IMG/VR virus record: IMGVR_UViG_3300046542_000248
Location: 1 to 64,000 of that record
From: a virus
DNA length: 64,000 nt
Strand: one strand, 5' to 3'
Every line of letters starts with the position of its first letter. Within the stretch, counting starts at the first letter, position 1. The position numbers and the translations under genes were made by a program. Below the pieces are notes generated by a model. That model was not told where the DNA came from. It saw nothing but the letters and a program-made list of their open reading frames with translations, and ran no database searches. Below, one piece after another: positions 1,255-64,000 of the stretch.

Positions 1255-1812
1255 ATGAAAGATTTATCTGAAAAGATTCATCAAGTTGTAGCCAATCATT
1301 TTACGGCTTTTGAAGTGATCATTGACCCTGATCACGAGAACGATGTTATGTATAAACTAAAGCTTGATAAGCGAATGAACGTAACGGGGATTGCGATATT
1401 TCCTAAAATTATTGCAAATGTAATTAAGGAAAACTTCACAATCTTCGAACGAATACTCTACGGCAAAAAGATTCAAGATGCCGCTGTACTGGTATTATCT
1501 TCTACTATTTCTAATCTTACAAAATCCAGAGATTGTCTTGAATCGCTGGCAAATCATATCAGAACTGATATTCAAACTGAACTAGAGTACGAGCAATTGA
1601 AACCTCAGCTTGAAGCAACGCTTGCAAAACTTTCTAACTTGGTAATTCCCTATCAGGATAGAAATAAATATCTGATTCAACCTAACATTACAGTTAACTT
1701 AGAATCTAAGCTCCCTGTTATCTTTTCTAACATTGAGCTTAACAGCTTCATGAATGTAATTGGGTATAGACCAGAGAAAAATAGTAGAGGGAAGGTGTTA
1801 CCTTGGCAGTAG
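1255..1812 (+). CDS. Hypothetical protein, co-transcribed with an RNA polymerase subunit
   Basis: The product is 185 aa with no family I recognise. The start is ATG 1255, with GGGAGG eight bases upstream; a TTG at 1249 is too close to it. The protein is mixed alpha/beta, without cysteine clusters or membrane segments, and has a charged helical middle. Its 3' end overlaps the polymerase gene at 1803 by 10 nt, so the two are probably translationally coupled and could act in the same complex. That link is inferred from position only. Confidence 0.8.
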   Translation: MKDLSEKIHQVVANHFTAFEVIIDPDHENDVMYKLKLDKRMNVTGIAIFPKIIANVIKENFTIFERILYGKKIQDAAVLVLSSTISNLTKSRDCLESLANHIRTDIQTELEYEQLKPQLEATLAKLSNLVIPYQDRNKYLIQPNITVNLESKLPVIFSNIELNSFMNVIGYRPEKNSRGKVLPWQ

Positions 1813-45000: not shown

Positions 45001-46136
45001 GTCTAAACATTTCTCCAGCATCAGCTACTTATAATGTCCCTACTAGAAAATGGACATCTTCATTTAGAGCTAATGATGTTAAAGGATCTAAAATTACTGA
45101 AGTTGACACTGGAATGACGAAAACTCCATACTATGATAGTAAAATTATCAGTCAACAAGCTACAGTATTTGGGCCATCTACTAAAATTACATCTGAACTA
45201 TTATTCGATGTATTTGAACTTGATACTCCAGCAGATTCACTTGGTACTATTACTATAATGGACCCAAGTAAATATACTTACACAATAGCTGAGAATATTA
45301 TTAAGTTTAATTTCAATTCTGATAGAATTGGCAAATCTATTTATGTCTGCGAGAAACGCTACAATCAATTTATCTTTGAAGGTTATAGCAATGATGGCTT
45401 ACTTCAAAAACTACCTACATGGATAAGCTTCCTTCCTAAAGAGAAGATGTTAATATTCTTAAATGGTAGACTTCTTGAAAAAGAAAGATACTATCTATTT
45501 GATCCTTTTAGATATCAAGTTCTTAAAGGTGATACAGTATTAGTCACAGATTTGGATACCAATACCATAGATGGTGAAATATTCAATGGGTATTTTACAT
45601 CTAGACTTGAATTGGCTGAATATAATGTGACACTAACTGATGGTGCTCAAATTGTCGCACTTAATGATAAGAGTTTCCCATTCTCTAAGAAATACAATCT
45701 TGTATTTGTAGATGGTAAACTTATTCATCCTGATGATATTAAAGAGATTGACAACTACAGATTCTCTGTTAAAACCACATCTACTAATAATATGTGTGTA
45801 TTTAGAAGACGTATGGATCTTGCTGGAAGAGAGAAATTCTCTGGAGTAAAAGATAAATGGACTGAATATCTTGAAACTTTAACAACTCCTCAAATAGCTA
45901 CACTACTTGGGACTCTTAACACCGTTGTTACTGGTGAAAATAATTCAAGATCAGTCTTTTTAGCTGAACGTCATTTATTTGAAGTATTGTATTATTATTG
46001 CTTAAAGGGAAGAGATCATTTGACTGATAATGATAATATTCGAATCCCTATTGAACTTCCTGGAACTATGTTATCTGATGGTCGTATTCCTATTTCAACT
46101 ATGAGAGCTGGGTTATATCCTCGTTATCAGTTATAG
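42030..46136 (+). CDS. Large LamG-domain tail/baseplate protein
   Basis: The product is 1368 aa. Residues 1-270 are a beta-rich N-terminal part. About 270-470 form a concanavalin A/LamG-like domain (LTLNGTTGYVSFGSYPSRSE, NTWYSMTITA, IDFVRIYNRKLKFSEV). About 640-780 look like a carbohydrate-binding jelly-roll. A second LamG-like domain follows at about 790-960 (GTLEIWYTP, HYIVMAWENKTLYAYINGVL). The last 380 residues are another unknown region. The protein probably sits on the baseplate or fibre base and touches cell-surface glycans. TAGGAGG precedes ATG 42030. Confidence 0.82.
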   Translation: MRANEDIYKRIYTKTLVRKNELSKINNLRTNVFPSSVIETDSYLDFGKSKKNLLPSNSAVVYLYEDVLNDKALLDRKSIVPHTVYKLTDFGVRTKVGMIISDETGLIDPDLVSVYVTDMNTLVFMINKDTSVYISIIYLKGVLMYARYNNNVDVPIPASYKNSFVVWTKLDNSPSGAVEWIDPVLNNGQYYIPIRAQGKFSLLMLSDTFKFYNIIPQTNSQYSYIKFPDEIGYTDLNNVFMWRNRSIGFSQPIGHTPLYDGFKVEGVTRTSLTLNGTTGYVSFGSYPSRSELTIHIKFKINAFGDLARVIQRGNSDGFGWCLRTTTDNRIAFQFKKYDILKNITSNPLTANTWYSMTITAATGEVPTMYVNSIQQPSNFIDNSASDSGTDFLVLGRRANASQDYTSIDIDFVRIYNRKLKFSEVLDGYNSIYPSTGMVNEWLFDENTGATLNDTKGSNPGTISGGTTWVNGPDNTVGRLVGFSKRIEYTSKYADLRHQYNKFNDYMTQYLANTLPVFIKNYTPYVPNITLDTLTSDFQDRMVLASKDYPNIVKEYLEETESIKFTDYVTTDINPIYTRANTATSVDGTYSVIATDTPRYVKDSNPMKKGIIIEDIVNNKMPDPLFNTPVALIAAGISNPTVWTVNYTATVQTTVVVANNVLRHTGFNNNSNSIRLTSPSFTVDKTKPLTIQFKVKYIKNTGTNQLYGFGTVTNGVEVLLDSFLFTSYVDADGFTYKEYRIPANTFTGSGTSINIGFWGGWNTYEEKDYYLKEVQVTELGYGGLTFTAVNKAADFLRVPSPNVLNPTVGTLEIWYTPKVVTDRALLQTNDSNVATKFAVRIQADGSVMFSNAGNDTAAKRIVSAAGLITARNVHYIVMAWENKTLYAYINGVLIGSLVTVSDAIIKDLLHIGADVSANYVNGIIHDFRASNTRRSLAEIQAAYTAKTALAVDANTTMKLNFDETIKPPNTVIHSLKLVTNHDLRKRLLFINGLNISPASATYNVPTRKWTSSFRANDVKGSKITEVDTGMTKTPYYDSKIISQQATVFGPSTKITSELLFDVFELDTPADSLGTITIMDPSKYTYTIAENIIKFNFNSDRIGKSIYVCEKRYNQFIFEGYSNDGLLQKLPTWISFLPKEKMLIFLNGRLLEKERYYLFDPFRYQVLKGDTVLVTDLDTNTIDGEIFNGYFTSRLELAEYNVTLTDGAQIVALNDKSFPFSKKYNLVFVDGKLIHPDDIKEIDNYRFSVKTTSTNNMCVFRRRMDLAGREKFSGVKDKWTEYLETLTTPQIATLLGTLNTVVTGENNSRSVFLAERHLFEVLYYYCLKGRDHLTDNDNIRIPIELPGTMLSDGRIPISTMRAGLYPRYQL

Positions 46137-49200: not shown

Positions 49201-51183
49201 GGCTCTGCGGCACCATTGATGTCTGGTACTGCAACTGTTGGTACAGCTACTAAATTTTCTAGGGAAGATCATATTCACCCTAGTGACACAAGTAGAGCAC
49301 CTGCGGCTTCTCCTACTTTTACTGGGACTGTAACTATTCCTACGGCAACTGTTAATACTAATACGACTCAAGCTGCTTCTACTGCATTCGTTATTGGTCA
49401 AGCAGCAACTGCTTCTCCTCTTATGGCAGGCACTGCAACTGTTGGTGTTGCAACTAGATTTGCTAGAGAAGATCATATTCATCCTAGTGATACGTCTAGA
49501 GCACCTACGGCTTCTCCTACATTTACTGGGATTGTAACTGTTCCTACACCAGCAAATGGTGATAATTCAACAAAAGCTGCAACAACTGCCTTTATTAATA
49601 ACTTATTGTCAGGGAATAGTATTTCTGATGGTATTACTTGGACAGCACGAACAAGTGCTGCTGATAATCAATGGCAGTCAATCTGTTATGGTAATGGATT
49701 ATATGTAGCAGTTGCTGGAACTGGTACGGGTAACAGGGTCATGACTTCCCCTGACGGTATTACTTGGACAACAAGAACAAGTGCTGCTGATAATAGCTGG
49801 GTTTCTGTTTGTTATGGTAATGGATTATTTGTAGCAGTTGCTTATGGTAGTTCCCCAAATACTGTTATGACATCAACTGATGGTATTACTTGGACAATAA
49901 GAAGTTCTGGTAGTTGGTTAAGAGCAGTTTGTTATGGTAATGGATTATTTGTGGCTGTAACTGATACTACTAGTGTTATGACATCTCCTGATGGTATTAC
50001 TTGGTCAACAAGAACGGGTGCCAATGCTAATCAATGGAATTCAGTTATTTATGCTGCTGGATTATTTGTAGCCGTAGCGTCTACTGGTACTGGTAATAGA
50101 GTTATGACATCACCTGATGGTATCACCTGGACAGCACGAACAAGTGCTGCTGATAATGGTTGGTATTCAATTTGTTATGGTGCTGGTTTATTTGTAGCCG
50201 TTGCGATTGATGGTACAGGTAACCGTGTAATGACATCTCCTGATGCTATCACTTGGACAATAAGAACAAGTGCTGCTGATGTTGTTTGGAGATCAGTTGC
50301 TTATGGTGGTGGAATATTTGTAGCTGTTGCACAATCATCTACATTAATGACATCTCCTGATGGTATCACTTGGACCGCAAGAACGGCTTCTTCTGGTAAT
50401 AACTGGTTTTCAGTCTGTTATAATAACGGTTTATTTGTAGCTGTAGCAACTTCAGGTACAGGTAATAGAGTTATGACAAATAGTGGAACCCCGGCAGCAC
50501 CACTATCAGTTACTACTGCCGCTGTTAATACTAATACAAATCAAATAGCATCTACAGCGTTTGTATTAGGTCAAGCAGCAACTGCTTCCCCATTAATGGA
50601 TGGAGTTGCAACTGTCGGTACTTCTACTAAATTTGCTAGAGAAGATCATGTTCATGCTAGTGACACTTCTAGAGCACCTACGGCTTCACCTACATTTACT
50701 GGAACTGTAGTATTACCTTCAACTACTAGTATCGGTTCTGTAACTGCAACTGAACTTGGATACTTATCCGGTGTAACTAGCTCTATTCAAACACAATTAA
50801 ATGCTAGAGCAACATCTGCTTCTCCTACATTTACTGGAACTGTGATCGCTCCTACACCAGCAGTTGATAATAGTTCTACTCAAGTATCAACAACTGCATG
50901 GTATATGGGTCAACGTGCACCAAGTGTACCTGTTATGAATGGAGCTGCTGCAATAGGGTCATCTTTAAAATGGGCAGCTTCTGACCATGTTCATCCAAGT
51001 GATACAAGCAGAGCGGCTGCGGCTTCTCCTACTATTACAGGAGTTCTTACAGCAAGTGGTTCTATCGTAACTCCTTTAATCACTGCAAATGCTGTTGAGG
51101 TAAAATCTAGTGCTACCACTAAGAAATTTACTTTAGATTATAATGAAACTGAAGATTCACTTGATTTTATCTATACACCGTAA
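46216..51183 (+). CDS. Tail fibre / adhesin with HxH fibre repeats and one seven-repeat propeller
   Basis: The product is 1655 aa. ATG 46216 has GGTGA upstream; GTG 46204 is too close to it. Residues 1-395 are an N-terminal attachment part. From about residue 395 it contains eight copies of a fibre repeat of about 67 residues with ASPTFTGTV, AAVNTNTTQAASTAFV and REDHVHPSDTS; the HxH core is like metal-binding needles of T4-type fibres. A separate lectin-like insert covers about 540-780. At about 1142-1423 seven blade repeats (W...CYGNGLFVAVA...MTSPDGIT) form one block. Two further fibre repeats and a short C-terminal domain follow. It is expected to recognise the host surface. Confidence 0.88.
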   Translation: MPPDVTKISFANFFNVFTDTSKMQNNELAFDSSYRLVYKDNTGVLRNIVSVNDYANIYAPNSVNITQIVKSAKVGVGTEGDFSAKVTKSMPLSNIVTATGIHNRLMLVQYDNNNNLKDTILFPEYFCKLGTYADTMDINKGIITEIIRKVKIDANLGVTTLTNNKIFKIYLTETTDVATTLNLPLTVEANKDVIANRNQMYIGADGYLYIIKDKAVSDLTYSFWVFNRRTTSVKVKVNTTIPLLEKNDNFVFESYRYVSDNIVGTSYQFVGSGETVQITKILSAIKTSSLGKEDVTLTISGDKKSVNGIQNGAYYTINVITDETPVIPSLVYQFLDVQDGFFGYLYTILKSINDNEHQTPIDIDAIVETVRLALLSYMDDKLLPKADLDSPNFIGVPKVPTAAVNTNTTQAASTAWVIGQASSASPLMDGAATIGVSLKYSREDHVHPIDTSRAPAASPTFTGTVTIPTAGVNTNTTQAASTAFVIGQAATATPLMAGVAAVGTATRFAREDHKHPIDTSRAAVDSPTFTTIVKTPDIDMLGNELWNSANLPIINMIPDSGRFMGNQQDPYAIQSGIAFTINNEFFAPYNGGNNSTGGKFIHNNTDNGGSAGSMTADAIALVNAMNTIAGADKRYGAEFHILDITQGSGTSLPHATNTSHYLLTTNNSKNIAGGGDYFTFSFWVRLKTGSGATISRSIKLAKNGIDVTASFLNISTADGWMHIQSVYKPSTGYDNTAPQIYAPSGAVIEIAIPVIASGGSGTGIHTSPIPRLDLGFTAASTASPTFTGTVTLPATTSIGPVTATELGYISGVTSSIQTQLNARATSASPTFTGTVTIPTAAVNTNTTQAASTAFVLGQAATASPLMAGVATVGTATKFAREDHVHPSDTSRAPTASPTFTGTVTIPTAAVNTNTTQAASTAFVLGQAGSASPVMNGTATVGVATKFAREDHVHPSDTAKADTASPTFTGTVTIPTAAVNTNTTQAASTAFVIGQAGSAAPLMSGTATVGTATKFSREDHIHPSDTSRAPAASPTFTGTVTIPTATVNTNTTQAASTAFVIGQAATASPLMAGTATVGVATRFAREDHIHPSDTSRAPTASPTFTGIVTVPTPANGDNSTKAATTAFINNLLSGNSISDGITWTARTSAADNQWQSICYGNGLYVAVAGTGTGNRVMTSPDGITWTTRTSAADNSWVSVCYGNGLFVAVAYGSSPNTVMTSTDGITWTIRSSGSWLRAVCYGNGLFVAVTDTTSVMTSPDGITWSTRTGANANQWNSVIYAAGLFVAVASTGTGNRVMTSPDGITWTARTSAADNGWYSICYGAGLFVAVAIDGTGNRVMTSPDAITWTIRTSAADVVWRSVAYGGGIFVAVAQSSTLMTSPDGITWTARTASSGNNWFSVCYNNGLFVAVATSGTGNRVMTNSGTPAAPLSVTTAAVNTNTNQIASTAFVLGQAATASPLMDGVATVGTSTKFAREDHVHASDTSRAPTASPTFTGTVVLPSTTSIGSVTATELGYLSGVTSSIQTQLNARATSASPTFTGTVIAPTPAVDNSSTQVSTTAWYMGQRAPSVPVMNGAAAIGSSLKWAASDHVHPSDTSRAAAASPTITGVLTASGSIVTPLITANAVEVKSSATTKKFTLDYNETEDSLDFIYTP
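47393..49530 (+). repeat. Tandem fibre repeats (about 67 residues each)
   Basis: Six copies of the ASPTFTGTV ... REDHxHP unit are encoded here, interrupted by the lectin-like insert; two more follow after 50510. The DNA of neighbouring copies is nearly identical over long stretches. Confidence 0.8.
49638..50482 (+). repeat. Seven-copy propeller-blade repeat block
   Basis: Seven consecutive copies of a unit of about 37-42 residues start with W-T-x-R-T and a second Trp, then a VCYGNGLFVAVA strand and MTSPDGIT. The third copy is short and the seventh ends in VMTNSG before fibre sequence resumes. Confidence 0.8.
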
Positions 51184-51187
51184 CAAA

Positions 51188-51228
51188 AAGACTGGATGGC
51201 TCCCTATTTGGGACCATCCAGTTTTATC
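51188..51228 (+). terminator. Rho-independent terminator
   Basis: ACTGGATGG and CCATCCAGT form a stem, followed by TTTATCTG. Confidence 0.72.
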
Positions 51229-51275
51229 TGTTAAACCATATATAAATCTAATAACGTGAAAGGTGTGAAATATAA

Positions 51276-54200
51276 ATGCCTACAATTGGTAGACTTAAAT
51301 TTGGTGATTTAATGGTTGCTGGGAAAATAAATGAAAGAACACAAGCTATTACTAATGGATTAATAGCACATTACCCATTCGATAATACTGCTATTGGTGA
51401 GGATTGGAATAAGAAAAGAAATTTGGTAGATTACAGTCAATGGAAGTTAGGAACTTCCGGTTCTCAAGGAAGTTTCAATCAAAATGGTACTACTAGTGAG
51501 AATCAGATTGTCAGATATCCAAATCCATGGGGTATAGATGATACGATATGGGGATGTTTAAATAATGATGTAACTAGTGATGCAGATGGTGGATGGAATT
51601 ATAATTCTGCACCTGTAGATAATACAAAAACTTATAGATTTTCTGTTTGGGTTAGACGTGAAGATGTTGGTGATGGGTACACATACTTTGGCCCTCAAAC
51701 AAGTACTGTGTCGCCATTAGGTTCGACCACTGCTGATAGTAATCCATATTTTACAAGTAAAAATGCTTCAAATCTTCCACAATCTGTAAATCAATGGTTA
51801 TTGTGGGTTGCACATGTTAGACCGTATGATTATGCAGGAGTAACTGCTCATAATGATTCTGGTATATATGATATTACCGGTAAAAAGGTAATGAATACTA
51901 TGATTGATTGGAAATGGCTAAATACAACTACCAGTAGTGGTCATAGAGCATATCTATACTATTCAACAGTTACTACAGAAAAACAATACATGTATCACCC
52001 AAGAATGGAAATGCTCGATGGCTATGAAAATACAGTACAAGAATTAATAATGGGTATTGAAGATAAAATCGACCCAGCTATTAATACTAACACCACTCTT
52101 AGAACTACTGGTTTATCTGTAGATTCTGCTACTGTTAATCTAGCAGATGGTGTATCATATGGAGCCTATGCTAGTGCTACACAGATTGGTGATTATTATG
52201 CATTACCAAACCCTGAAGATAAAACTTCTCAAAAATATGTAGTAAATGGAGTCGGATCTGTTGCAAGAGGTAGAAAAAATTTACCAGCAGTTACTGGAAA
52301 AACATATATCATGTCAATAGTAATGAAAATTACTGGAGCTGGTAGTATGTATGTAAGTCCATCTAAACCAAATCCTGAAGCATCGAATACGATAAATGTA
52401 ACAACTGTTCGATTAGCAACTATAGATCTTGGTGGTGGATGGTTTAAAATTATTGAATTATATACGATTGTATCTAACACCGTGGCATCTTGCATCTTCT
52501 GCTTTGGTATCTCTGGCGGAGCTGTAAATGATGAATTTTACGTGTATGATCTTCAATGGGAAGATAAAGCTTATCCTACAAGCTACGTTGCCGGAACTCG
52601 TGCCAGTAATAGTGTTTTCTCAATACCGAAATCAATGGTTCCTTCTACTGGTACATTCGTATTTGAATTTATGCCTAGAGCTTTTAGTGCTAATATGCCA
52701 ATTTTTTCTACTGGTGTAGATGGCTCTTCTGGCGGATTTGATTTGTTAATGCCAACTGCCGCAGGTTCAGGCGACACACTGTTTAGATGCTACAATGCTT
52801 CAAATTATTTTCAAGCATCAGGATCATCATCATGGTTCCCTACCTTATTTGCATGGTATGAAGTTGCTATTGCTTATACAAATAACGGAAGTGTCACGAT
52901 GTATATAAATGGAGATCCAGTTATAACTGTACCAAGTATAGGTGACTGGTTTGCAGCATTTACAGCATCTGGAACTGGTTTATATTTAGGAAGTGGCATA
53001 AGATCAGCAACCTCAATGGAATTTAGAAATGTATCTCTATATAACAGAGTCTTAACTGCTGCTGAGGTTTTAGAGAATTATTCTCCTACAAAATTTAAAT
53101 TATCTATTGATGGTAATATAAATATGCCAGTTGTAGAAAAACCTATTGGGATTCCTTCTGATGCATATTATTGGCCTCTTGGTGAAACTACACTTGATAC
53201 CACTTTCAAGTTTGATGCGATTGTTAAGGATGCTCTTACTTATAGGGACGGATATGCATGGGTACATTCAACTACTCAAGCAAATTTATTTCCAACTTAT
53301 CAAGATACATCAAATTTTGGGGTTAAAGGTGCTAGTAATTTTAAAACAATACAATTTGATGATTCAAATGTTATTTATAGATATGACTATTTTGGAGAAG
53401 GTACAAACTATAAAGGTCATGATATTGCTGTAACTTCTGGTACTAGTTACTTTTTTAGTATTGATGTTTTTGTATCTTCTGACTTTAATGGTAATACTAC
53501 GATGGTTGCCGGAATAGAAAATATCGTTGCTAATTATTTTAATTATAATATGAACAGAAAAGGAGTATGGCAACGGTTTACTTATACATTTACTGCACCT
53601 TCTTCTGGGATTGCTAGATTATTAATGTACCCTTGTGCTAATAATTCATCTGGTACTAAAGGTTATGTTTTGTATAGAAATCCTATGTTTACAGCTAGTG
53701 CTTATGAAGTTCCATTTTATAAAACAACTCGCATGAAAGGAAATCTTCAATTCAATCTGTATAATACAATAGGTCTTGACTGGAATAGTAACTGGTCAAT
53801 TGTTTATACAAAAATTCCTAAAGGTACAAGTAGTATTGGTAACTTAACAAATTACAATATTGATACTCTTGGTGCAAACTCGAACAGTGTTGGTGGAGGA
53901 TATAAATACTGGGGCAAAACAACTGGTGCTGATACTTTGAATATCACTAATGGTGGTATAATTGCAACTCTTACACCATCAGATTATTTTAACAGACCTC
54001 ATATGATTTCCATAGTAAAGAATGGGACTAATATTACATGGAAATTCTATGGAATCAATGGAACAATTACTTCACATACTCAGTCTATAGGAACAATCGC
54101 ATCTAATTATTTCGTAAATCAGTATGGTTATGACTTAAAGCTTGGTGGATGGGATAATACTAATGATTGTGGATCAATGTTTAAAGATCTATTCGTTGTA

Positions 54201-54311
54201 AAACGAGCAATGCTTGATGCTGATCTTGATCTTATGTGGAAAAGACAAATGAGAGTTAAGAATGGTAGACTCGAAGTTCAGGGCGGCATTTCTGATGGTT
54301 ACGTATTCTAA
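51276..54311 (+). CDS. LamG-domain tail adhesin
   Basis: The product is 1011 aa. After a short N-terminal attachment segment (GRLKFGDLMVAGKINERT, followed by NGLIAHYPFDNT), two jelly-roll domains follow: one at about 40-250 with DTIWGCLNND, YRFSVWVRRE and YMYHPRMEM, and a second at about 330-600 with LamG features (GTFVFEFMPRAFS, VAIAYTNNGSVTMYINGDP, FRNVSLYNRVLTAAEV). The C-terminal half repeats the pattern with another jelly-roll (TSYFFSIDVFVSS) and a LamG-like end (IVKNGTNITWKFYG). It probably binds glycans on the cell wall. AAAGGTG lies upstream of ATG 51276. Confidence 0.83.
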   Translation: MPTIGRLKFGDLMVAGKINERTQAITNGLIAHYPFDNTAIGEDWNKKRNLVDYSQWKLGTSGSQGSFNQNGTTSENQIVRYPNPWGIDDTIWGCLNNDVTSDADGGWNYNSAPVDNTKTYRFSVWVRREDVGDGYTYFGPQTSTVSPLGSTTADSNPYFTSKNASNLPQSVNQWLLWVAHVRPYDYAGVTAHNDSGIYDITGKKVMNTMIDWKWLNTTTSSGHRAYLYYSTVTTEKQYMYHPRMEMLDGYENTVQELIMGIEDKIDPAINTNTTLRTTGLSVDSATVNLADGVSYGAYASATQIGDYYALPNPEDKTSQKYVVNGVGSVARGRKNLPAVTGKTYIMSIVMKITGAGSMYVSPSKPNPEASNTINVTTVRLATIDLGGGWFKIIELYTIVSNTVASCIFCFGISGGAVNDEFYVYDLQWEDKAYPTSYVAGTRASNSVFSIPKSMVPSTGTFVFEFMPRAFSANMPIFSTGVDGSSGGFDLLMPTAAGSGDTLFRCYNASNYFQASGSSSWFPTLFAWYEVAIAYTNNGSVTMYINGDPVITVPSIGDWFAAFTASGTGLYLGSGIRSATSMEFRNVSLYNRVLTAAEVLENYSPTKFKLSIDGNINMPVVEKPIGIPSDAYYWPLGETTLDTTFKFDAIVKDALTYRDGYAWVHSTTQANLFPTYQDTSNFGVKGASNFKTIQFDDSNVIYRYDYFGEGTNYKGHDIAVTSGTSYFFSIDVFVSSDFNGNTTMVAGIENIVANYFNYNMNRKGVWQRFTYTFTAPSSGIARLLMYPCANNSSGTKGYVLYRNPMFTASAYEVPFYKTTRMKGNLQFNLYNTIGLDWNSNWSIVYTKIPKGTSSIGNLTNYNIDTLGANSNSVGGGYKYWGKTTGADTLNITNGGIIATLTPSDYFNRPHMISIVKNGTNITWKFYGINGTITSHTQSIGTIASNYFVNQYGYDLKLGGWDNTNDCGSMFKDLFVVKRAMLDADLDLMWKRQMRVKNGRLEVQGGISDGYVF

Positions 54312-54370
54312 ATTATTACGTATTTAACTATCTATAAATCCCATCCCATAAACGAGGAGTTGTTATTTTC

Positions 54371-54748
54371 ATGAGTCATAATCATCACTTTTTCACGAAT
54401 CAAAGTATTCACACTTTAAACGATTGTATTGATACTGCAATGCGTCAAAATGGTATTGATGTTCTGCAAGATATTAATGCAGTATTGTATGAATTTACAA
54501 ATAACGTGGCTTCGGTTGAAGCTAACCACGACAAAGTTATTGCTCTTACACCGGCAGTTGCCGAAGTGGTTAAATCATTTGCAGATCTACACTTGAAAGT
54601 TAAAGGTGCTGCGGTAATCAAAGCAGTCGGGGTTATTCTTGATACAATTGATAATCCTCTTGCACCACCGCAACCGCAAGAACCGGTAGAAGAAGCTGCC
54701 CAAGAAGAAGTTGTTGAAGCAGCTGCTAGTCCCGAATCACAACAATAA
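54371..54748 (+). CDS. Hypothetical helical protein with an acidic Pro/Gln tail
   Basis: The product is 125 aa. Residues 1-100 look helical, beginning with MSHNHHFFTNQSIHTLNDCI, and the last 30 residues are Pro, Gln, Glu and Ala-rich. Its codons are GC-richer than those of the fibre genes around it, resembling genes 23993 and 27322. AGGAGTTG precedes ATG 54371. It is set between two adhesin genes and may be a chaperone or accessory of fibre assembly; that is a guess. Confidence 0.75.
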   Translation: MSHNHHFFTNQSIHTLNDCIDTAMRQNGIDVLQDINAVLYEFTNNVASVEANHDKVIALTPAVAEVVKSFADLHLKVKGAAVIKAVGVILDTIDNPLAPPQPQEPVEEAAQEEVVEAAASPESQQ

Positions 54749-54754
54749 ACCAAT

Positions 54755-54797
54755 TAATCAGGAAGAGTCTAAAAAGGCTCTTCCTGGTTTTTTGTTT
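54755..54797 (+). terminator. Rho-independent terminator
   Basis: CAGGAAGAG and CTCTTCCTG form a stem, followed by GTTTTTTG. Confidence 0.8.
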
Positions 54798-54866
54798 GTC
54801 AACTTTATATTATGAAACATCAAAATAAGATACTTTATAATGGAAATGTGATAAGGAGGCTTATAT

Positions 54867-57800
54867 ATGGGCGAGTGGCATGGTGGGTCTACATTAGGTG
54901 GATATCCACTTGTAGTTAAAGCTGGTACTGACAATTATTTACCCAGATTTTCTGGGAGACTTTTAGTAAATAGTTCCATCACTGATGATGGGACAACTGC
55001 AACTTTAGGAAATGCTAATATTACTGGGACAGTTTCTTTTTCTGGTCCAGTTACTTTTTCAGGAACAACTTCTTTTAGTAGTGGTCTTACTGCGACTACT
55101 GCCGCAGTTAATACGAATACTACTCAACTCGCTACAACCGCATTCGTTATTGGTCAAGCAGCAACAGCAACTCCTCTTATGGATGGTACAGCTACAATTG
55201 GTGTAGCTACTAGATTTGCTAGAGAAGATCATATTCATCCTACTGATACAAGTAGAGCGCCAACAGCATCTCCTACGTTTACGGGAACTGTAACTATTCC
55301 GACAGCAGCTGCTAATACCAATACAACTCAAGCTGCGTCTACTGCATTCGTTATTGGTCAAGCTTCAAATGCTTTACCAGTAATAAACGGTACTATTACG
55401 GCTGGTGTTTCGAGTAAATTTTCAAGGGACGACCATGTACATCCTGTGGATATAAGTAGAGCGCCTATAACCTCACCGGCTTTTTTAGGAACGCCAACAG
55501 CTCAGATCCAACCACCAGGTACAAATTCAACAGCACTTGCTAATACTCAATTCGTTCAAGCTGCAATTACAACACCTAGTGTTTGGGCTACAAGAACAAG
55601 TGCTGCTGATAATCAATGGATGACAGTTTGTTATGGTAATGGAACATTTGTAGCTGTGGCAAATACAGGTACAGGTAATAGAGTTATGACATCAACTGAT
55701 GGTATTACTTGGACAATAAGAACAACCCCTGCCGATAATGGATGGAGATTTGTTTGTTATGGTAATGGTTTATTTGTAGCTGTAGCAGAAACTACAGGTA
55801 CAGGGAATCGTGTAATGACTTCTCCTGATGGTACTACTTGGACCATAAGAACAAGTGCTGCTGATAATGACTGGAAAGCAGTTTGCTTTGGTAATGGATT
55901 ATTCGTTGCAGTAGCAGCTACAGGTACAGGGAATCGTGTAATGACTTCTCCTGATGGTATCACTTGGACAATAAGAACAAGTGCTGCTGATAATAGCTGG
56001 GTTTCAGTTTGTTATGGTGCTGGATTATTTGTAGCTGTGGCAAATACAGGCACAGGTAATAGAGTAATGACATCTCCTGACGGTATTACTTGGACAATAA
56101 GAACAAGTGCTGCCAATAATACTTGGAGATCAATATGTTATGGTAATGGTATATTTGTAGTAATTTCATTTGATACACCGTCTAATAGAGTTATGACATC
56201 AACGGATGGTATTAACTGGACTTTAAGATCAAGCTATGTTGATAATACATGGATTTCAGTTTGTTATGGTGGTGGATTATTTGTAGCTGTAGGTAACAGT
56301 GGTACAGGTAATAGAGTTATGACATCAACTGATGGTATTACTTGGGCAGCAAAAGCAAGTGCTGCCGATTATGCATGGAACTCGGTTTGTTATGGTAATG
56401 GATTATTTGTAGCTATATCATATGATGGTACAGGTAATAGAGTTATGACAATGACTCGTTCAGTCGATGTTGTTGATCAAATACAGTCTGTTATTTCATC
56501 ATATAAAAGTGATATTAACAATCTTGCAGGAGTATTTGATACTTGGACTGCAAGAACAACTCCTATTGATAATGCATGGCTTGGTATCTGCTATGGTAAT
56601 GGTTTATTTGTAGCTATTGCTAATAGTGGTACAGGAAATCGTGTAATGACTTCTCCTGATGGTATCACTTGGACAATAAGAACAAGTGCTGCCGATAATA
56701 ACTGGGCTAAAGTATGCTATGGTGCTGGATTATTTGTAGCTGTTGCAACCACTGGTACTGGTAACCGTGTAATGACTTCTCCTGATGGTATCACTTGGAC
56801 AATACGAACAAGTGCTGCTGATAATAACTGGGCTGGTATATGCTATGATAATGGATTATTTGTAGCAGTTGCAACTTCTGGTACTGGCAATAGAGTAATG
56901 ACTTCTCCTGATGGTATCACTTGGACAATACGAACAAGCGCTGCTGATAATAACTGGTCTTCAGTATGTTATGGTAATGGATTATATGTGGCAATTGCAG
57001 GATCTGGTACAGGTAACCGTGTTATGACTTCTCCTAATGGTATTACTTGGACAATAAGAACATCCCCCGCTGATAATAACTGGTATACAGTTTGTTTCGG
57101 TAATGGATTATTCGTATCTGTGGCTTGGAGTGGTACAGGTAACCGTGTTATGACTTCTCCTGATGGTATTACTTGGACTTTAAGAGTATCTCCTGCCGAT
57201 ATTTGGTGGATGGCACTTTGTTATGGTAATGGAGTATTTATATCTTTGGCACAAACTGGTACTGGTAACCGTGTTATGACTTCACCAGATGGTATTAACT
57301 GGACGCAACGATTAACACCTGTTGATAACCAGTGGACTGCAATATGTTATGGTAACGGATTATTTGTAGGTGTATCACTTGATGGTGCAGGTAATAGAGT
57401 TATGACTAGTGCTGGGCCTATTACAGTTGCAACTAGATTAAGTAATCTAGATACAATTGATGTTACTAGTAAAAAGAATTTAGATTCTGTAACTCAACAT
57501 ACGTGGGTAAATAGAACAAGTGCTGCTGATAACCAATGGGTTTCAGTTTGTTATGCTATTGGTTTATTTGTAGCTGTGGCTCAATCGGGTACAGGTAACC
57601 GTGTTATGACTTCTCCTGATGGTATTAACTGGACAATAAGAACAAGCGCCGCTGATAATAACTGGCAAGCAGTTTGTTATGGTGCTGGATTATTTGTAGC
57701 TGTTGCATCTACTGGTACTGGTAATAGAGTTATGACTTCTCCTGATGGTATCACTTGGACAATACGAACAAGTGCTGCTGATAATAGCTGGACTGCTGTT

Positions 57801-58658
57801 TGCTATGCTATTGGTTTATTTGTAGCTGTAGGGTTGAGTGGTACTGGTAACAGGGTTATGACTTCTCCTGATGGTATTACTTGGACTATTAGAACAAGTT
57901 CTGTTGATAATGCCTGGAGATCAGTTGTCTATGGTAATGGTTTATTTGTAGCGATATCTAATAGTGGTTTCCCTTCTATGGTTATGACTTCTCCTGATGG
58001 TATTACTTGGACTACAAGATCTGCTTCTGCTAATAATAACTGGCTCGCAGTTTGTTTTTCTAATGGTTTATTTGTAGCCGTAGGCGCTGCAGGTACTGGT
58101 AATAGAGTTATGACTTCTCCTGATGGTATCACTTGGACTACTAGAACAAGTGCTGCTGATAATAGCTGGACTACAATTTGTTATGCTAATGGTTTATTTG
58201 TAGCTATTGCATCGGATGGTCCAGGTAATAGAGTTATGACTTCTCCAGATGGTATCACTTGGACTATTAGATCAAGTGTCGCCGATAACGGCTGGGATTC
58301 AGTTTGTTATGGTAATGGATTATTTGTAGCTGTCGCACAATCGGGTACAGGTAACCGTGTTATGACAATGTATCGTTCAGATGAAGCAACTGATCAGATC
58401 TTACAAACTGTAACTAAACTTGCAACTAATTACAATACGGTTAGAAGTAGTAAAGATTCTAATGGAATATTTACTACTATTACAGTAAAAAGACCTGATA
58501 ACACCGTGTATCAAACATCTGTACTTTCTGGTGGAACAAGTCCAACTTATACTACTAGAACCATTACAACGTATGATACAAATGGTACTACAGTTTTAAG
58601 TACTAAATCATATGCATTAACTTACGACTCTGATGGAGATCTGGTAAGTGAGCTTTAA
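54867..58658 (+). CDS. Tail adhesin with three seven-repeat propellers
   Basis: The product is 1263 aa. Residues 1-240 hold an attachment region (MGEWHGGSTLGGYP, with GNANITGTVSFSGPVTFSGT) and two HxH fibre repeats (REDHIHPTDTS; RDDHVHPVDIS). Then come three blocks of seven blade repeats, at about 240-530, 560-848 and 880-1168, separated by helical linkers (DQIQSVISSYKSDINN; RLSNLDTIDVTSKKNLDS; TDQILQTVTKLATNYNTV). The last 90 residues are a beta-rich end. AAGGAGG precedes ATG 54867. It is likely a receptor-binding protein or a fibre distal part. Confidence 0.87.
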   Translation: MGEWHGGSTLGGYPLVVKAGTDNYLPRFSGRLLVNSSITDDGTTATLGNANITGTVSFSGPVTFSGTTSFSSGLTATTAAVNTNTTQLATTAFVIGQAATATPLMDGTATIGVATRFAREDHIHPTDTSRAPTASPTFTGTVTIPTAAANTNTTQAASTAFVIGQASNALPVINGTITAGVSSKFSRDDHVHPVDISRAPITSPAFLGTPTAQIQPPGTNSTALANTQFVQAAITTPSVWATRTSAADNQWMTVCYGNGTFVAVANTGTGNRVMTSTDGITWTIRTTPADNGWRFVCYGNGLFVAVAETTGTGNRVMTSPDGTTWTIRTSAADNDWKAVCFGNGLFVAVAATGTGNRVMTSPDGITWTIRTSAADNSWVSVCYGAGLFVAVANTGTGNRVMTSPDGITWTIRTSAANNTWRSICYGNGIFVVISFDTPSNRVMTSTDGINWTLRSSYVDNTWISVCYGGGLFVAVGNSGTGNRVMTSTDGITWAAKASAADYAWNSVCYGNGLFVAISYDGTGNRVMTMTRSVDVVDQIQSVISSYKSDINNLAGVFDTWTARTTPIDNAWLGICYGNGLFVAIANSGTGNRVMTSPDGITWTIRTSAADNNWAKVCYGAGLFVAVATTGTGNRVMTSPDGITWTIRTSAADNNWAGICYDNGLFVAVATSGTGNRVMTSPDGITWTIRTSAADNNWSSVCYGNGLYVAIAGSGTGNRVMTSPNGITWTIRTSPADNNWYTVCFGNGLFVSVAWSGTGNRVMTSPDGITWTLRVSPADIWWMALCYGNGVFISLAQTGTGNRVMTSPDGINWTQRLTPVDNQWTAICYGNGLFVGVSLDGAGNRVMTSAGPITVATRLSNLDTIDVTSKKNLDSVTQHTWVNRTSAADNQWVSVCYAIGLFVAVAQSGTGNRVMTSPDGINWTIRTSAADNNWQAVCYGAGLFVAVASTGTGNRVMTSPDGITWTIRTSAADNSWTAVCYAIGLFVAVGLSGTGNRVMTSPDGITWTIRTSSVDNAWRSVVYGNGLFVAISNSGFPSMVMTSPDGITWTTRSASANNNWLAVCFSNGLFVAVGAAGTGNRVMTSPDGITWTTRTSAADNSWTTICYANGLFVAIASDGPGNRVMTSPDGITWTIRSSVADNGWDSVCYGNGLFVAVAQSGTGNRVMTMYRSDEATDQILQTVTKLATNYNTVRSSKDSNGIFTTITVKRPDNTVYQTSVLSGGTSPTYTTRTITTYDTNGTTVLSTKSYALTYDSDGDLVSEL
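55584..58370 (+). repeat. Three blocks of seven propeller-blade repeats
   Basis: Blocks run at about 55584-56453, 56543-57410 and 57503-58370. Each has exactly seven copies counted by the W-x-x-R/x-x-x-x-DNxW start. Copies are nearly identical in DNA around MTSPDGIT and the CYGNGLFVAVA strand, and variable beside the second Trp. Confidence 0.82.
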
Positions 58659-58685
58659 GAATTTTATCATAGCTATTAAACAGTA

Positions 58686-58727
58686 AAACATAAAGATAGG
58701 GAGGACAATTTCTCCCTATCTTTATTA
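58686..58727 (+). terminator. Rho-independent terminator
   Basis: AAAGATAGGGAG and CTCCCTATCTTT form a long stem, followed by ATTAGTTAT. Confidence 0.75.
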
Positions 58728-58777
58728 GTTATATTTAAACTATATAAAATTTATAATATTAAAAAGGAGGTTTCCTT

Positions 58778-61700
58778 ATGTTAGATATATTTCAACATGG
58801 TGTAGGTCAAACAAAAAAAACATTAGCCCCAGCTAGTAAATGGGATATAAGAACGGGTGCTGTAGATAATTTCTGGAAAGGTATTTGTTATGGTAATGGT
58901 TTATTTGTGGCTGTAGCTTATGCTGGTACAAATAGAATAATGACTTCTCCTGATGGTATTACTTGGACATCACGGACAAGTACTTATGAAAATGCATGGA
59001 ATTCAATCTGTTATGGTAATGGTTTATTTGTAGCTGTAGCTTATGCTGGTCAAGTTGGAACGCTTATATTGACTTCTCCTGATGGTATTACTTGGACACA
59101 TAGAACAAACCCTAATGCTAATCAATGGTGGGCAGTCTGTTATGGTAATGGAGTATTTGTAGCTGTCGCACAAACTGGTACTGGTAATAGAGCAATGACC
59201 TCTCCTGATGGGGTTAACTGGACAGCAAGAACAACTCCCGCTGATAATCAATGGCGTGGACTTACTTATGGTAATGGTTTATTTGTAGCAGTTTCAAATG
59301 ATGGTACAGGTAATAGAGTCATGACTTCCCCTGATGGTATTACCTGGACTATTAGAACAAGTTCCTCCGATGATGGGTGGATTTCAGTCTGTTATGGTAA
59401 TGCATTATTTGTGGCCGTTTCAAATTCAAGCAAAAAAGTAATGACTTCCCCTGATGGTATTAACTGGACAACAAGAACTGGAGGCATTACCAATGGAGCT
59501 ATATTAGTCACATATGATAACGGTATATTTGTAGCGGTATCATATGATGCAGCAGGTAGCAATGTAATGACTTCTCCTGATGGTGTTACCTGGATTACAA
59601 GAACTACATCTACTACCAATACTTGGCAAGCAGTTTGTTATGGTAATGGATTATTTGTAGCTGTAGCGTCTACTGGCACAGGTAATAGAGTAATGACAAG
59701 CGGTAGCATAAATATTCCCACACTTAGTAAAAATGTTGGAACTACGTGGCAAGTACAATCAAGCGCTGCTGATAATACATGGAGATCTGTATGTTATGGT
59801 AATGGATTATTTGTAGCAGTATCTGATTCGGGTACTGCCGGATATCGTATAATGACATCTCCTGATGGTATTAACTGGACTTTAAGAGCTACTCCTGGCG
59901 ATTATGCATACTATTCAGTATGCTATGGTAATGGTATATTTGTGGCACTTGCAGTTTCTGGTGGTGTATATATGACATCATTCGATGGTATTAACTGGAC
60001 ATTAAGAACACCTCCTATTGCTCTTGCATGGAGGTGGGCTTGTTATGGTAATGGATTATTTGTAGCAGTTGCACAAGGTGGTACAAATAACCAAGTTATG
60101 ACCTCCCCAGATGGGATTACCTGGACTGTAAGAACAACTCCTGGCGCTAATCAATGGAATTCAGTTGTTTATGGCAATGGACTATTTGTAGCTGTTGCAT
60201 CGCTTGGTACGAATAATAGGGTTATGACTTCTCCTGATGGTATTACTTGGACATTAAGAACTACAGGTATTAGTGGTAGCGGTACTACTACAATAGTAAA
60301 TTCAGGTGGAGTGTTTGTACAAGTTTCATTAGCCTATGCACCTGACACATTAAACTTAACATCTGGAGCACACACTATTTCATACACATCAGCAACTCCT
60401 GACAGATATGTTATAGATGGTGTAACGAAATTATTCTCCTCTGAGGGTGGATATGTAAATTCTACAGGATTCAAACTCTGGTTAACACCTTGGGGATTAA
60501 GTGCGGGAGCATCAGTAAACTGGTCTAGCACTGCGGATAATGGATGGTTTTCAGTCTGTTACGGTGCTGGTTTATTTGTAGCTACTGCAATGACAGGTAC
60601 AGGAAATCGTATAATGACATCTCCTGATGGTATCACATGGACATCACAAATAAGTCCTGCTGATAATGATTGGTATTGTGTTTGTTATGCTAATGGATTA
60701 TTTGTATCTGTGGGTGCTACTGGTACTGGAGATAGAATTATGACCTCTAAAGATGGTATTACTTGGGTTACACGAGCAAGTATTGATAATACTTGGAGAG
60801 GTGTTTGTTTTGGTAATGGTATATTTGTAGCTGTTGGTATTGATGGGGTAGGTAATAGGGCAATGAATTCTGGCACCGTAATTGATAATACTCTTTCTGC
60901 TGAATTTGCTATAAGAAAACCTGAACTCGGATCTACATGGCAAATAAGGTCAACCCCTGTTGATAATCAATGGCTTTCAGTTTGTTATGGTGGTGGTATA
61001 TTTGTAGCTGTAGCAATTTCTGGTACTGGGAATCGTATCATGGCTTCTGCAGATGGAGTTAACTGGACAACACAAACAAGCCCTTCTGATAATATGTGGT
61101 ATTCAATCTGCTACGGTAACGGAATGTTTGTAGCTGTGGCTGCTGGTGGGTATATAATGTATTCTTCAGATGGAGTTGTCTGGGCTTCAAAACAAGTTCC
61201 ATGGAATCATGCATGGTATAGTATTTGTTATGGTAATGGGACATTTGTAGCTGTATCAGCTAATAGTGTAGGTGGTAACACCGCAGCAATGACTTCTAAA
61301 GATGCTATTAACTGGACTTTAAGATCAACCCCTGCCGATAATCAATGGTACGGTCTTGCGTATGGTAATGGATTATTTGTAGCCGTAGCAATCTCTGGTA
61401 CAGGTAATAGAGTTATGACTTCTCCTGATGGTATTACATGGACAATAAGAACAACACCCATGGATAATGCTTGGATTGCAGTTTGTTATGGTGCTGGTTT
61501 ATTTGTAGCTGTAGGTTTTGATGGCACTATAAATAACTGTGTAATGACTTCTCCTGATGGTATTACTTGGACAATAAGAACTGCCGCATCTAATAATAAA
61601 TGGGTTAGTATAGCATACGGTAGTGGATTATTTGTAGCTATTTCCTTTGATGCTACCGGTAATAAAGTTATGGTATCTTCAAATGGTATTAATTGGTCAT

Positions 61701-63646
61701 TAAAACCGAGTGCAGGAAATAATCTATGGAGAGGTATTTGTTATGGTAACGGTATATTTGTAGCTGTAGCATATACTGGAAGTACCGGTAATCTGGTAAT
61801 GACAAGCTCAGGTGGTGCTAATACTGATACTAGCCTAGCTAAATCATACTCAGATACAATAGTTAAAGCGGGTATAAAATGGTCAGCAAAAAACGCATTA
61901 CCTAGTTTTGGTGCTAATAATTTGTGCTATGGTAATGGTTTATTTGTGGCTGTAATGTACACAGGTACAGATAGAGTTGCAATTTCTCAAGATGGTGTCA
62001 ATTGGACCTCAATAAATAGCCCTCTTGGTAATAACTGGTCTGCTGTTTGTTATGGTAACGGTGTATTTGTAGCAGTTTCAAATGGTGGTGTAGGTACTAG
62101 AGCCATGTCTTCTTTTGACGGGGTTACATGGACTCAACGAACAAGTGCTGCTGATAATAACTGGGCTGCTGTTTGTTACGGTAATGGATTATTTGTAGCT
62201 GTTGCAGTTACTGGTACAGGTAACCGTGTTATGACTTCACCTGATGGTGCTACTTGGACAGCAAGAACTACACCTGCTGATAATAACTGGAGTTCAGTTT
62301 GTTACGGTGCTGGTATATTTGTAGCTGTAGCAACTACAGGTACGGGTAATAGAGTTATGTCTTCTCCTGATGGAATTACTTGGACACTAAGAACAAGTGT
62401 TGCTGATAATAGTTGGTATGATGTTTGTTATGGTAACGGTATATTTGTAGCTGTAGCATATAACGGCACCACAGCTAATCAAATTATGACTTCTCCTGAT
62501 GGTATTACGTGGACAGCAAGAACTAGCCCATCAGCCAATGGATGGTATCTAACATGTTTTGGTAATGGTGTATTTGTATCTATTGGGGATACAGGCACTA
62601 GTAAAATTATGATTTCTGTAGATGGAGTTAACTGGACCTTAAGAACTGGAACAATTACTGGTAGTTCTTGGATGGGCTTCGTCTATGGCAATGGTATATA
62701 TTTAGTAGTCTCAGATAGTAATGGTAAATCAATGGTATCAAATGATGGTATAAAATGGTCGGCACCATATTTTACTGTAGATAATAACTGGAGTTCAGTA
62801 TGCTACGGTAATGGATTATTTGTAGCTGTTGGTACATCAGGAACTGGAAATCGCGTTATGACGTCACCTGATGGTCTTACTTGGACTACTAGAACAAGCG
62901 CTGCTGATAATAGCTGGACTGCTGTTTGTTATGGTAATGGATTATTTGTAGCGGTGGCGCTTAGTGGTACTGCATCGACTAGAGTTATGACCTCGCCTGA
63001 TGGTATTACTTGGACAACTAGATCAGCCACTACTACCAATTTTTGGAGATCTGTTTGTTATGGTAATGGATTATTTGTAGCCATCGCATCTACCGGTTCA
63101 CCTTCTCAAATTATGACTTCTCCTGATGGTATTACTTGGACCGCAAGAACTACTCCTCTTGATAACAGTTGGCAGTCAGTTTGTTATGGTGCTGGATTAT
63201 TTGTGGCTGTAGGACCCCTCACTGCATCAGTGGATGGAGTTATGACTTCTCCTGATGGAATTACTTGGACTGTTAGGTTAGGAGCTTCTCTTAATTACTG
63301 GTGTTCAGTTTGTTATGGTAATGGTTTATATGTAGCAGTTTCAAACGCTACTGGTACAGGTAATCGTGTAATGACTTCTTCTGATGGTCTTACTTGGACA
63401 TCAAGAACAACTCCTGCTGATAATGGATGGAATTCAGTATGCTACGGTAATGGATTATTTGTAGCTACTGCAATGTCAGGCACTGGTAATAGAGTAATGA
63501 CATCACCTGATGGTATCACTTGGACTTTACGAGCAACCAATGTTGATAATCAATGGGGTTCGGTATGTTATGGTATTGGCACATTTGTATCTGTATCAGT
63601 CGATGGTACAGGTAACAGAGCCATGACTTCATCTCTACAATATTAA
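58778..63646 (+). CDS. Giant propeller-repeat tail adhesin
   Basis: The product is 1622 aa. A 20-residue N-terminus (MLDIFQHGVGQTKKT) is followed almost at once by blade repeats that fill the whole protein. By counting repeat starts I read blocks of 7, about 8, 7 and 14. The second block includes a repeat opened by an insert of about 50 residues (VIDGVTKLFSSEGG region, about 525-585). Linkers between blocks are short (GSINIPTLSKNVG; TVIDNTLSAEFAIRK; GANTDTSLAKSYSDTI). AAAGGAGG precedes ATG 58778. There is no fibre repeat and no chaperone-like tail, so it is close to a pure repeat array. Confidence 0.87.
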   Translation: MLDIFQHGVGQTKKTLAPASKWDIRTGAVDNFWKGICYGNGLFVAVAYAGTNRIMTSPDGITWTSRTSTYENAWNSICYGNGLFVAVAYAGQVGTLILTSPDGITWTHRTNPNANQWWAVCYGNGVFVAVAQTGTGNRAMTSPDGVNWTARTTPADNQWRGLTYGNGLFVAVSNDGTGNRVMTSPDGITWTIRTSSSDDGWISVCYGNALFVAVSNSSKKVMTSPDGINWTTRTGGITNGAILVTYDNGIFVAVSYDAAGSNVMTSPDGVTWITRTTSTTNTWQAVCYGNGLFVAVASTGTGNRVMTSGSINIPTLSKNVGTTWQVQSSAADNTWRSVCYGNGLFVAVSDSGTAGYRIMTSPDGINWTLRATPGDYAYYSVCYGNGIFVALAVSGGVYMTSFDGINWTLRTPPIALAWRWACYGNGLFVAVAQGGTNNQVMTSPDGITWTVRTTPGANQWNSVVYGNGLFVAVASLGTNNRVMTSPDGITWTLRTTGISGSGTTTIVNSGGVFVQVSLAYAPDTLNLTSGAHTISYTSATPDRYVIDGVTKLFSSEGGYVNSTGFKLWLTPWGLSAGASVNWSSTADNGWFSVCYGAGLFVATAMTGTGNRIMTSPDGITWTSQISPADNDWYCVCYANGLFVSVGATGTGDRIMTSKDGITWVTRASIDNTWRGVCFGNGIFVAVGIDGVGNRAMNSGTVIDNTLSAEFAIRKPELGSTWQIRSTPVDNQWLSVCYGGGIFVAVAISGTGNRIMASADGVNWTTQTSPSDNMWYSICYGNGMFVAVAAGGYIMYSSDGVVWASKQVPWNHAWYSICYGNGTFVAVSANSVGGNTAAMTSKDAINWTLRSTPADNQWYGLAYGNGLFVAVAISGTGNRVMTSPDGITWTIRTTPMDNAWIAVCYGAGLFVAVGFDGTINNCVMTSPDGITWTIRTAASNNKWVSIAYGSGLFVAISFDATGNKVMVSSNGINWSLKPSAGNNLWRGICYGNGIFVAVAYTGSTGNLVMTSSGGANTDTSLAKSYSDTIVKAGIKWSAKNALPSFGANNLCYGNGLFVAVMYTGTDRVAISQDGVNWTSINSPLGNNWSAVCYGNGVFVAVSNGGVGTRAMSSFDGVTWTQRTSAADNNWAAVCYGNGLFVAVAVTGTGNRVMTSPDGATWTARTTPADNNWSSVCYGAGIFVAVATTGTGNRVMSSPDGITWTLRTSVADNSWYDVCYGNGIFVAVAYNGTTANQIMTSPDGITWTARTSPSANGWYLTCFGNGVFVSIGDTGTSKIMISVDGVNWTLRTGTITGSSWMGFVYGNGIYLVVSDSNGKSMVSNDGIKWSAPYFTVDNNWSSVCYGNGLFVAVGTSGTGNRVMTSPDGLTWTTRTSAADNSWTAVCYGNGLFVAVALSGTASTRVMTSPDGITWTTRSATTTNFWRSVCYGNGLFVAIASTGSPSQIMTSPDGITWTARTTPLDNSWQSVCYGAGLFVAVGPLTASVDGVMTSPDGITWTVRLGASLNYWCSVCYGNGLYVAVSNATGTGNRVMTSSDGLTWTSRTTPADNGWNSVCYGNGLFVATAMSGTGNRVMTSPDGITWTLRATNVDNQWGSVCYGIGTFVSVSVDGTGNRAMTSSLQY
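58841..63630 (+). repeat. Propeller-blade repeats in four blocks
   Basis: Blocks at about 58841-59700 (7), 59746-60870 (7 intact plus one broken), 60936-61806 (7) and 61879-63630 (14, without an internal linker). The consensus is the same as in the other adhesins. Confidence 0.8.
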
Positions 63647-63724: not shown

Positions 63725-63766
63725 ATTTATTAATTAAATTTATAATAGATGGGAGAGAATATGAAC

Positions 63767-64000
63767 ATGATAGAATCATATGTACATGGATTAGGAAGTA
63801 AAAGTAGTACTAGTAGTGATCCAGGTGTTAAATGGACTCCAAGAGTAACTCCTGCCGATAATGATTGGAGAGGCATCTGTTATGGTGCTGGTTTGTTTGT
63901 AGCTGTAGGGGCTTCAGGTACGGGTAATAGAGTAATGACTTCCCCTGATGGTATTAACTGGACTGCAAGAACAACTCCTATTGATAATAACTGGTTTGCG
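63767..64000 (+). CDS. Propeller-repeat tail adhesin, 5' end only
   Basis: The frame is open to the window edge, 78 codons. GGGAGAG lies about ten bases before ATG 63767; an in-frame ATG at 63761 is closer. The N-terminus has the layout of gene 58778: a short hydrophobic start, then HGLG and a Ser/Lys-rich spacer, then the first blade (WTPRVTPADNDWRGICYGAG). The rest lies beyond the window, so its length and number of blocks cannot be given. Confidence 0.85.
   Translation, partial: MIESYVHGLGSKSSTSSDPGVKWTPRVTPADNDWRGICYGAGLFVAVGASGTGNRVMTSPDGINWTARTTPIDNNWFA

Follow-up and report, generated by a model that had tools for sequence, protein, structure and literature searches.

Four adjacent genes of a probable large tailed phage encode strings of predicted seven-bladed beta-propellers, probable pads for host-surface binding

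We found blocks of a 42-residue repeat in the products of four neighbouring genes (A, C, D and E; Table 1) in a virus record of 246,901 bases. Each block would fold into a closed beta-propeller with seven blades and about 290 residues. The window, the stretch of DNA that was analysed, comprises bases 1-64000 of this record. In the proposed structure, the four strands of a blade would be formed by W-T-x-R (d), x-S-V-C-Y-G (a), L-F-V-A-V (b) and R-V-M-T-S (c), and the first d-strand of a domain would pair with the a, b and c strands of its last blade, closing the ring. The resulting discs, joined by short linkers or by none, would be strung as one, three, five and four propellers on proteins A, C, D and E, respectively. 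The carrier would be a large tailed phage and the discs most likely serve as multivalent pads that bind the host surface, a role in which we infer both the ligand binding and the multivalency. Taken as a whole, we consider this reading quite probable.

Table 1. Features of the predicted propeller locus and of the matching site in the nearest relative (window coordinates unless stated; propellers are predicted)
Feature	Coordinates	Strand	Description
Upstream gene	42030..46136	+	1368 aa; concanavalin/laminin-G-like domain, PF13385 1.1e-29
Gene A	46204 (GTG) or 46216 (ATG)..51183	+	1659 aa; conserved N-terminus, tail-fibre repeats, one propeller
Propeller A1	49636..50478	+	7 blades, residues 1145-1425; profile matches
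Gene inside cluster	51276..54311	+	1011 aa; between gene A and gene C
Gene C	54867..58658	+	1263 aa; tail-fibre N-terminus, three propellers, tail-fibre-like C-terminal 75 aa
Propeller C1	55584..56450	+	7 blades; profile
Propeller C2	56541..57413	+	7 blades; profile
Propeller C3	57501..58367	+	7 blades; profile
Gene D	58778..63646	+	1622 aa; N-terminal stretch of about 20 residues, propellers almost to the end
Propeller D1	58838..59701	+	7 blades; profile matches
Block D2	59744..60871	+	4 + 3 clear blades, odd stretch about 60245-60523
Propeller D3	60935..61816	+	7 blades; profile and AlphaFold2
Propeller D4a	61877..62752	+	Blades 1-7 of the 14-blade block; profile and AlphaFold2
Propeller D4b	62753..63631	+	Blades 8-14 of the 14-blade block; no linker before
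Gene E	63749..64000 in window, to 67435 in record	+	1228 aa, 28 blades; L011:5150-8836
4003-aa repeat protein	L181:14320-19899 onward into L182 (G019:C1:124319-136330)		Nearest relative

Blades were counted by motif first and then with a profile that was derived from the units of the window itself; the repeat is present in three open reading frames of the window and in gene E. Both counts give seven blades in gene A and three sets of seven in gene C, the numbers that an earlier note on this DNA had reported for these genes. By profile, gene E (read beyond the window end) has blocks of 7, 7 and 14 blades, and gene D has a block of 7, the block D2 with four plus three clear blades, and blocks of 7 and 14. 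The earlier count for gene D (7, about 8, 7 and 14) holds for the 7, 7 and 14, while its "about 8" is made up of seven canonical blades and about 94 further residues. The earlier note had also placed helical linkers or unrelated sequence at the block ends: some linkers are helical, others are not, and both 14-blade blocks lack any linker between their two sevens. With the odd stretch of D2 left aside, the four genes hold 91 canonical blades (13 x 7), and 12 of the 13 units of seven are clean.

Block D2 is the sole block of the four genes whose multiple of seven is insecure. Its four clear blades are followed by about 94 unusual residues (490-582) and then by three clear blades. At the start of the odd stretch, 28 residues take in an ordinary d-strand and score 11.6 bits against the blade profile, which about one in 500 shuffles equals, and the last 58 or so score no better than shuffles. 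The AlphaFold2 model of D2 and D3 has a mean pLDDT of 80.6, with almost all of the odd stretch below 50. Based on the profile scores, D2 may comprise seven blades and an insertion, eight blades or possibly nine; an eighth blade would be degenerate.

Relatives of the blocks were taken from viral contigs (76 loci) and bacterial genomes (79 loci), and clustering at 90% identity left 186 complete blocks, the window's own included. Seven units are present in 155 of these blocks, 14 units in 11, and other numbers in 20. The earlier note had staked the propeller reading on repeat numbers that are multiples of seven, and among the blocks of five or more units, 180 in all from 136 loci, such multiples account for 166 (92%); 122 of the 136 loci have no other kind of block. 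A binomial calculation at a chance of one in seven gives about 1e-121, a value that ignores kinship among the sequences and therefore shows only that the excess of sevens is enormous. Among the off-seven blocks (5, 6, 8 or 9 units), some are made of near-identical blades, a kind of repeat that can be collapsed in short-read assemblies. Two alike proteins (L019 and L041) have seven and six blades, respectively, and differ by 42 residues in length; this one-blade difference could be real or an assembly collapse.

The blocks also keep a fixed phase. The start lies at model position 1-2, the tryptophan of the d-strand, in 171 of 180 blocks, and the end lies at position 37-39, beyond the c-strand and ahead of SPDGITW and the following d-strand, in 156 of 180; the D/N-G-x-x-W motif is found at the block end in only two. 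A block thus begins with an orphan d-strand and lacks one at its end, which argues for the 1+3 closure of a propeller ring. We read this putative pairing of first and last strands from the sequence and from structural matches rather than from coordinates, the observations being the fixed phase and the superposition on single-domain proteins described below.

In Synechococcus phage B23 (L170:6001-6888), seven blades are encoded on the plus strand, at a site whose annotation shows two small genes in the opposite direction; the seven-blade frame is probably a missed gene. In a 210-kb virus record, one frame of 4452 aa (L176, G002:C1:106379-126000) contains nine sevens, arranged as four and five propellers that flank a long collagen-like rod. 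Searches of this record for a large terminase and a giant-virus capsid gave no classification.

AlphaFold2 was run on the 14-blade block D4 and on D2 with D3, using an alignment of homologues from the fetched loci that itself contained 7+7 homologues. The D4 model is regular, with four strands per blade and a mean pLDDT of 86, and the predicted secondary structure of D3 likewise consists of four-stranded blades. The pTM values of 0.59 (D4) and 0.51 make the relative orientations of the propellers unreliable. In the BFVD, half of D4 superposes on the viral protein M1PQ47 (315 aa) over 292 columns at 1.3 A (TM 0.87, normalised to the target length); for a phage protein with DUF6242 the values are 1.9 A and TM 0.88. 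Structure prediction, which the earlier note had proposed as a check, returned four-stranded blades, and half of D4 matches phage proteins of about 300 aa. Against the PDB, the lowest E-values belong to LRP2 and LRP6 chains, but at about 20 A and a TM of about 0.35; Utp21 (4nsx, a tandem WD40 protein) matches D4 better than the two-propeller LRP6 chains do (TM 0.50-0.52). A PDB sequence search found no solved relative of the blades, and its weak matches to designed beta-trefoils were set aside as matches of composition and repeat. The giant virus Hokovirus HKV1 encodes a protein named collagen repeat protein (A0A1V0SF56, BFVD) whose propeller shares 56% identity with D4, a hint that transfer may have reached far outside phages.

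The blades belong to a recognised sequence type. Gene D matches DUF6242 (PF19755; 4e-27, 95.9 bits against a cut-off of 29) and EPTP (PF03736; 6.6e-15, 55.3 bits against a cut-off of 21). Genes C and E also match both families over the curated Pfam cut-offs, and gene A falls under both. Work on the LGI family treats EPTP repeats as repeats of a beta-propeller (PMC2949613). Proteins with DUF6242/EPTP repeats share their blade sequence with genes C, D and E; unlike them, the proteins described here have one to five whole propellers in series, in a phage and partly fused to tail-fibre repeats. Given the sevens in relatives, the fixed end phase, the AlphaFold2 models and the structural matches, the prediction that the blocks are closed seven-bladed propellers of DUF6242/EPTP type is close to certain, and all these lines agree with the propellers in series that the earlier note had proposed. 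That note had also compared SPDGITW with the Asp-box turn. The resemblance stands and the turn may be called Asp-box-like, but it is one residue short: the four genes have the canonical spacing S-x-D-x-G-x-T-W once and the shortened S-x-D-G-x-x-W 79 times (14 against 1365 in relatives). We therefore do not file these propellers under the Asp-box type.

The sequence context points to tail fibres. Gene A matches PHROG tail fiber families (up to 1e-37), and its propeller sits among 204-bp tandem tail-fibre repeats. The N-terminus of gene C matches a PHROG tail fiber family at 1.8e-8, and its residues 1189-1263 are 64% identical to an annotated tail fiber protein of phage D6E. Judged by these matches, the products of genes A and C are tail-fibre proteins. 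In the PHROG scans, which covered genes A, C and D, no tail-fibre sequence was found in gene D. Genes D and E consist almost only of propellers and follow genes A and C on the same strand; their products are probably accessory fibre proteins or proteins of the virion surface, a location that we infer. Both genes have a short N-terminal H-G-x-G motif (window 58778-58840 and 63749-63830), alike linkers and C-termini that end in Q-Y; the shared end motifs are possibly docking peptides.

The nearest relative found is a 246,689-base record whose polymerase subunit is 53% identical to that of the window. At the same site it encodes a 740-aa homologue of the upstream gene, the conserved left flank of the adhesin locus, and a 706-aa protein about 50% identical to the N-terminus of gene A. 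The propeller genes are replaced by a 4003-aa repetitive protein without similarity to the window, and a search of the record, run without a positive control, gave no propeller match. The first 1860 aa of this protein have weak matches only, one of them to a carbohydrate-binding family. Further on, the relative encodes a homologue of the gene just past gene E. The adhesin locus is exchanged between related phages, as expected of host-recognition cassettes. The gene between A and C had no family match in Pfam or PHROG and no homologue at the matching site of this relative.

Variation between blades is concentrated in two loops. In the window, the mean entropy is 2.24 bits in the d-a loop and 1.94 bits in the b-c loop, compared with 0.69 and 0.59 bits in the a-b and c-d turns. 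The trend is the same in relatives (2.18 and 1.99 bits against 1.25 and 0.47), and the position-wise entropies of window and relatives correlate at 0.85. Tyr, Arg, Asn and Gln are frequent among the variable residues around the two loops, whereas Glu and Lys are almost absent. Variation in the window peaks at position 14, where 21% of residues are aromatic, 14% are Arg and none is Glu. In propellers, the d-a and b-c loops share one face. The binding face would lie around these loops; on the opposite face, the turns hardly vary. Such variability suits a binding face; it could partly reflect folding constraints, to which the constant face may also be partly due.

Two origins for the blades and their diversity were set aside. 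No match to reverse transcriptase PF00078 was found in the virus record, which may be incomplete, and diversification by a retroelement was dismissed on that ground. In-register duplication of whole blocks found no support as the sole origin: of 78 block pairs, no more than 16 have their best match in register, and the nearest neighbours of blades lie mostly in other blocks and positions: 17 of 91 blades have theirs in the same block (about 6 expected) and 15 of 91 in the same position (about 12 expected). Mean DNA identity is 0.686 within a block, 0.680 for the same position and 0.675 otherwise. These values point to a certain amount of local amplification, and not to a simple doubling of entire blocks.

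Several other readings of the repeats were weighed. Tandem repeats alone would be compatible with an open solenoid, as would the 14-blade blocks without a linker. Nothing in an open array would call for a fixed end phase, and the blocks of seven or 14 speak for closed rings, as does the superposition on phage proteins that consist of a single domain and are about 300 aa long; we rejected the solenoid on blade counts and block phase and give it almost no likelihood. A role of the propellers as enzymes that cleave glycans, in the manner of sialidase/BNR proteins, is very unlikely. SPDGITW does resemble an Asp-box and phage endosialidases with propellers are known (PMC4901313), yet no glycosidase family was matched in Pfam and the Asp-box spacing is, with that one exception, the shortened one.

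The propellers might instead be spacers or surface decoration that lengthen or stiffen the fibres or coat the virion and bind no receptor, which would suit the absence of a recognised tip or attachment domain from genes D and E and the nine propellers that flank a collagen-like rod in the 4452-aa protein of another virus. We judge this improbable, because recognition better fits both the clustering of variable, Tyr/Arg/Asn/Gln-rich residues at two loops and the exchange of the locus between relatives. Less probable still is that the products of genes D and E act outside the virion as intracellular or secreted protein-binding scaffolds: in both, the first propeller lies almost at the very start, and gene D has no tail-fibre sequence, whereas their position behind A and C on one strand, their paralogous propellers and the exchanged locus favour the virion. 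Binding of the host surface by the propellers thus appears likely, given the tail-fibre sequence, the locus exchange and the variable loops on one expected face. A further and more tentative reading, which we regard as possible and would not favour, is that the 13 propellers share a constant scaffold and together offer a repertoire of diversified binding faces, with pads or strings exchanged between phages.

Window positions 1803-3320 and 9619-11199 encode, on opposite strands, RNA polymerase beta-subunit families (PHROG) that also occur in phiKZ-like jumbo phages. phiKZ gp131C (PDB 4GBF), at the baseplate periphery of that jumbo phage and suspected of receptor binding, is a seven-bladed phage propeller like those described here (PMC4901313). 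It is one domain of one protein, compared with 13 propellers here, and is absent from the PDB sequence matches of the blades. The receptor-binding protein gp45 of phage phi11 (PDB 5EFV) has one five-bladed propeller per chain and is trimeric (PMC4901313, PMC6115969). It resembles the present proposal in bringing several propellers together and in an N-terminal strand that closes the last blade, but groups them by trimerisation and not in series on one chain. Jumbo phage CBB also has several propeller proteins, of another family (Kelch-type, described as six-bladed), one of which, CBB_552, was found in the virion (PMC5259590). Outside this setting, highly repetitive propellers have been amplified from single blades, and long blade runs can be predicted to split into separate propellers, as in a 15-blade example (PMC9218822). 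Those propellers have near-identical blades, as here, but are of WD40 type, in contrast to the DUF6242/EPTP type on phage fibres. The same difference in type holds for the tandem propellers 1NR0, 2YMU and 4NSX, and tandem structures rank among the fold matches. Our few literature searches returned no report of a comparable propeller series in a phage.

The fold itself is already known; what is unusual is its elaboration into 13 propellers spread over four adjacent genes, of which two encode almost only propellers. Phage fibres are known to bear propellers one at a time or in trimers; 13 in series would, if the reading is true, be an unusual host-recognition architecture, with specificity expected to be set by the residues around the d-a and b-c loops. 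If the repertoire reading is also true, four to six variable positions per blade over 91 blades would give one phage many different pads. The sevens in relatives from phages and many bacterial phyla provide a clean natural test of how blade number is controlled.
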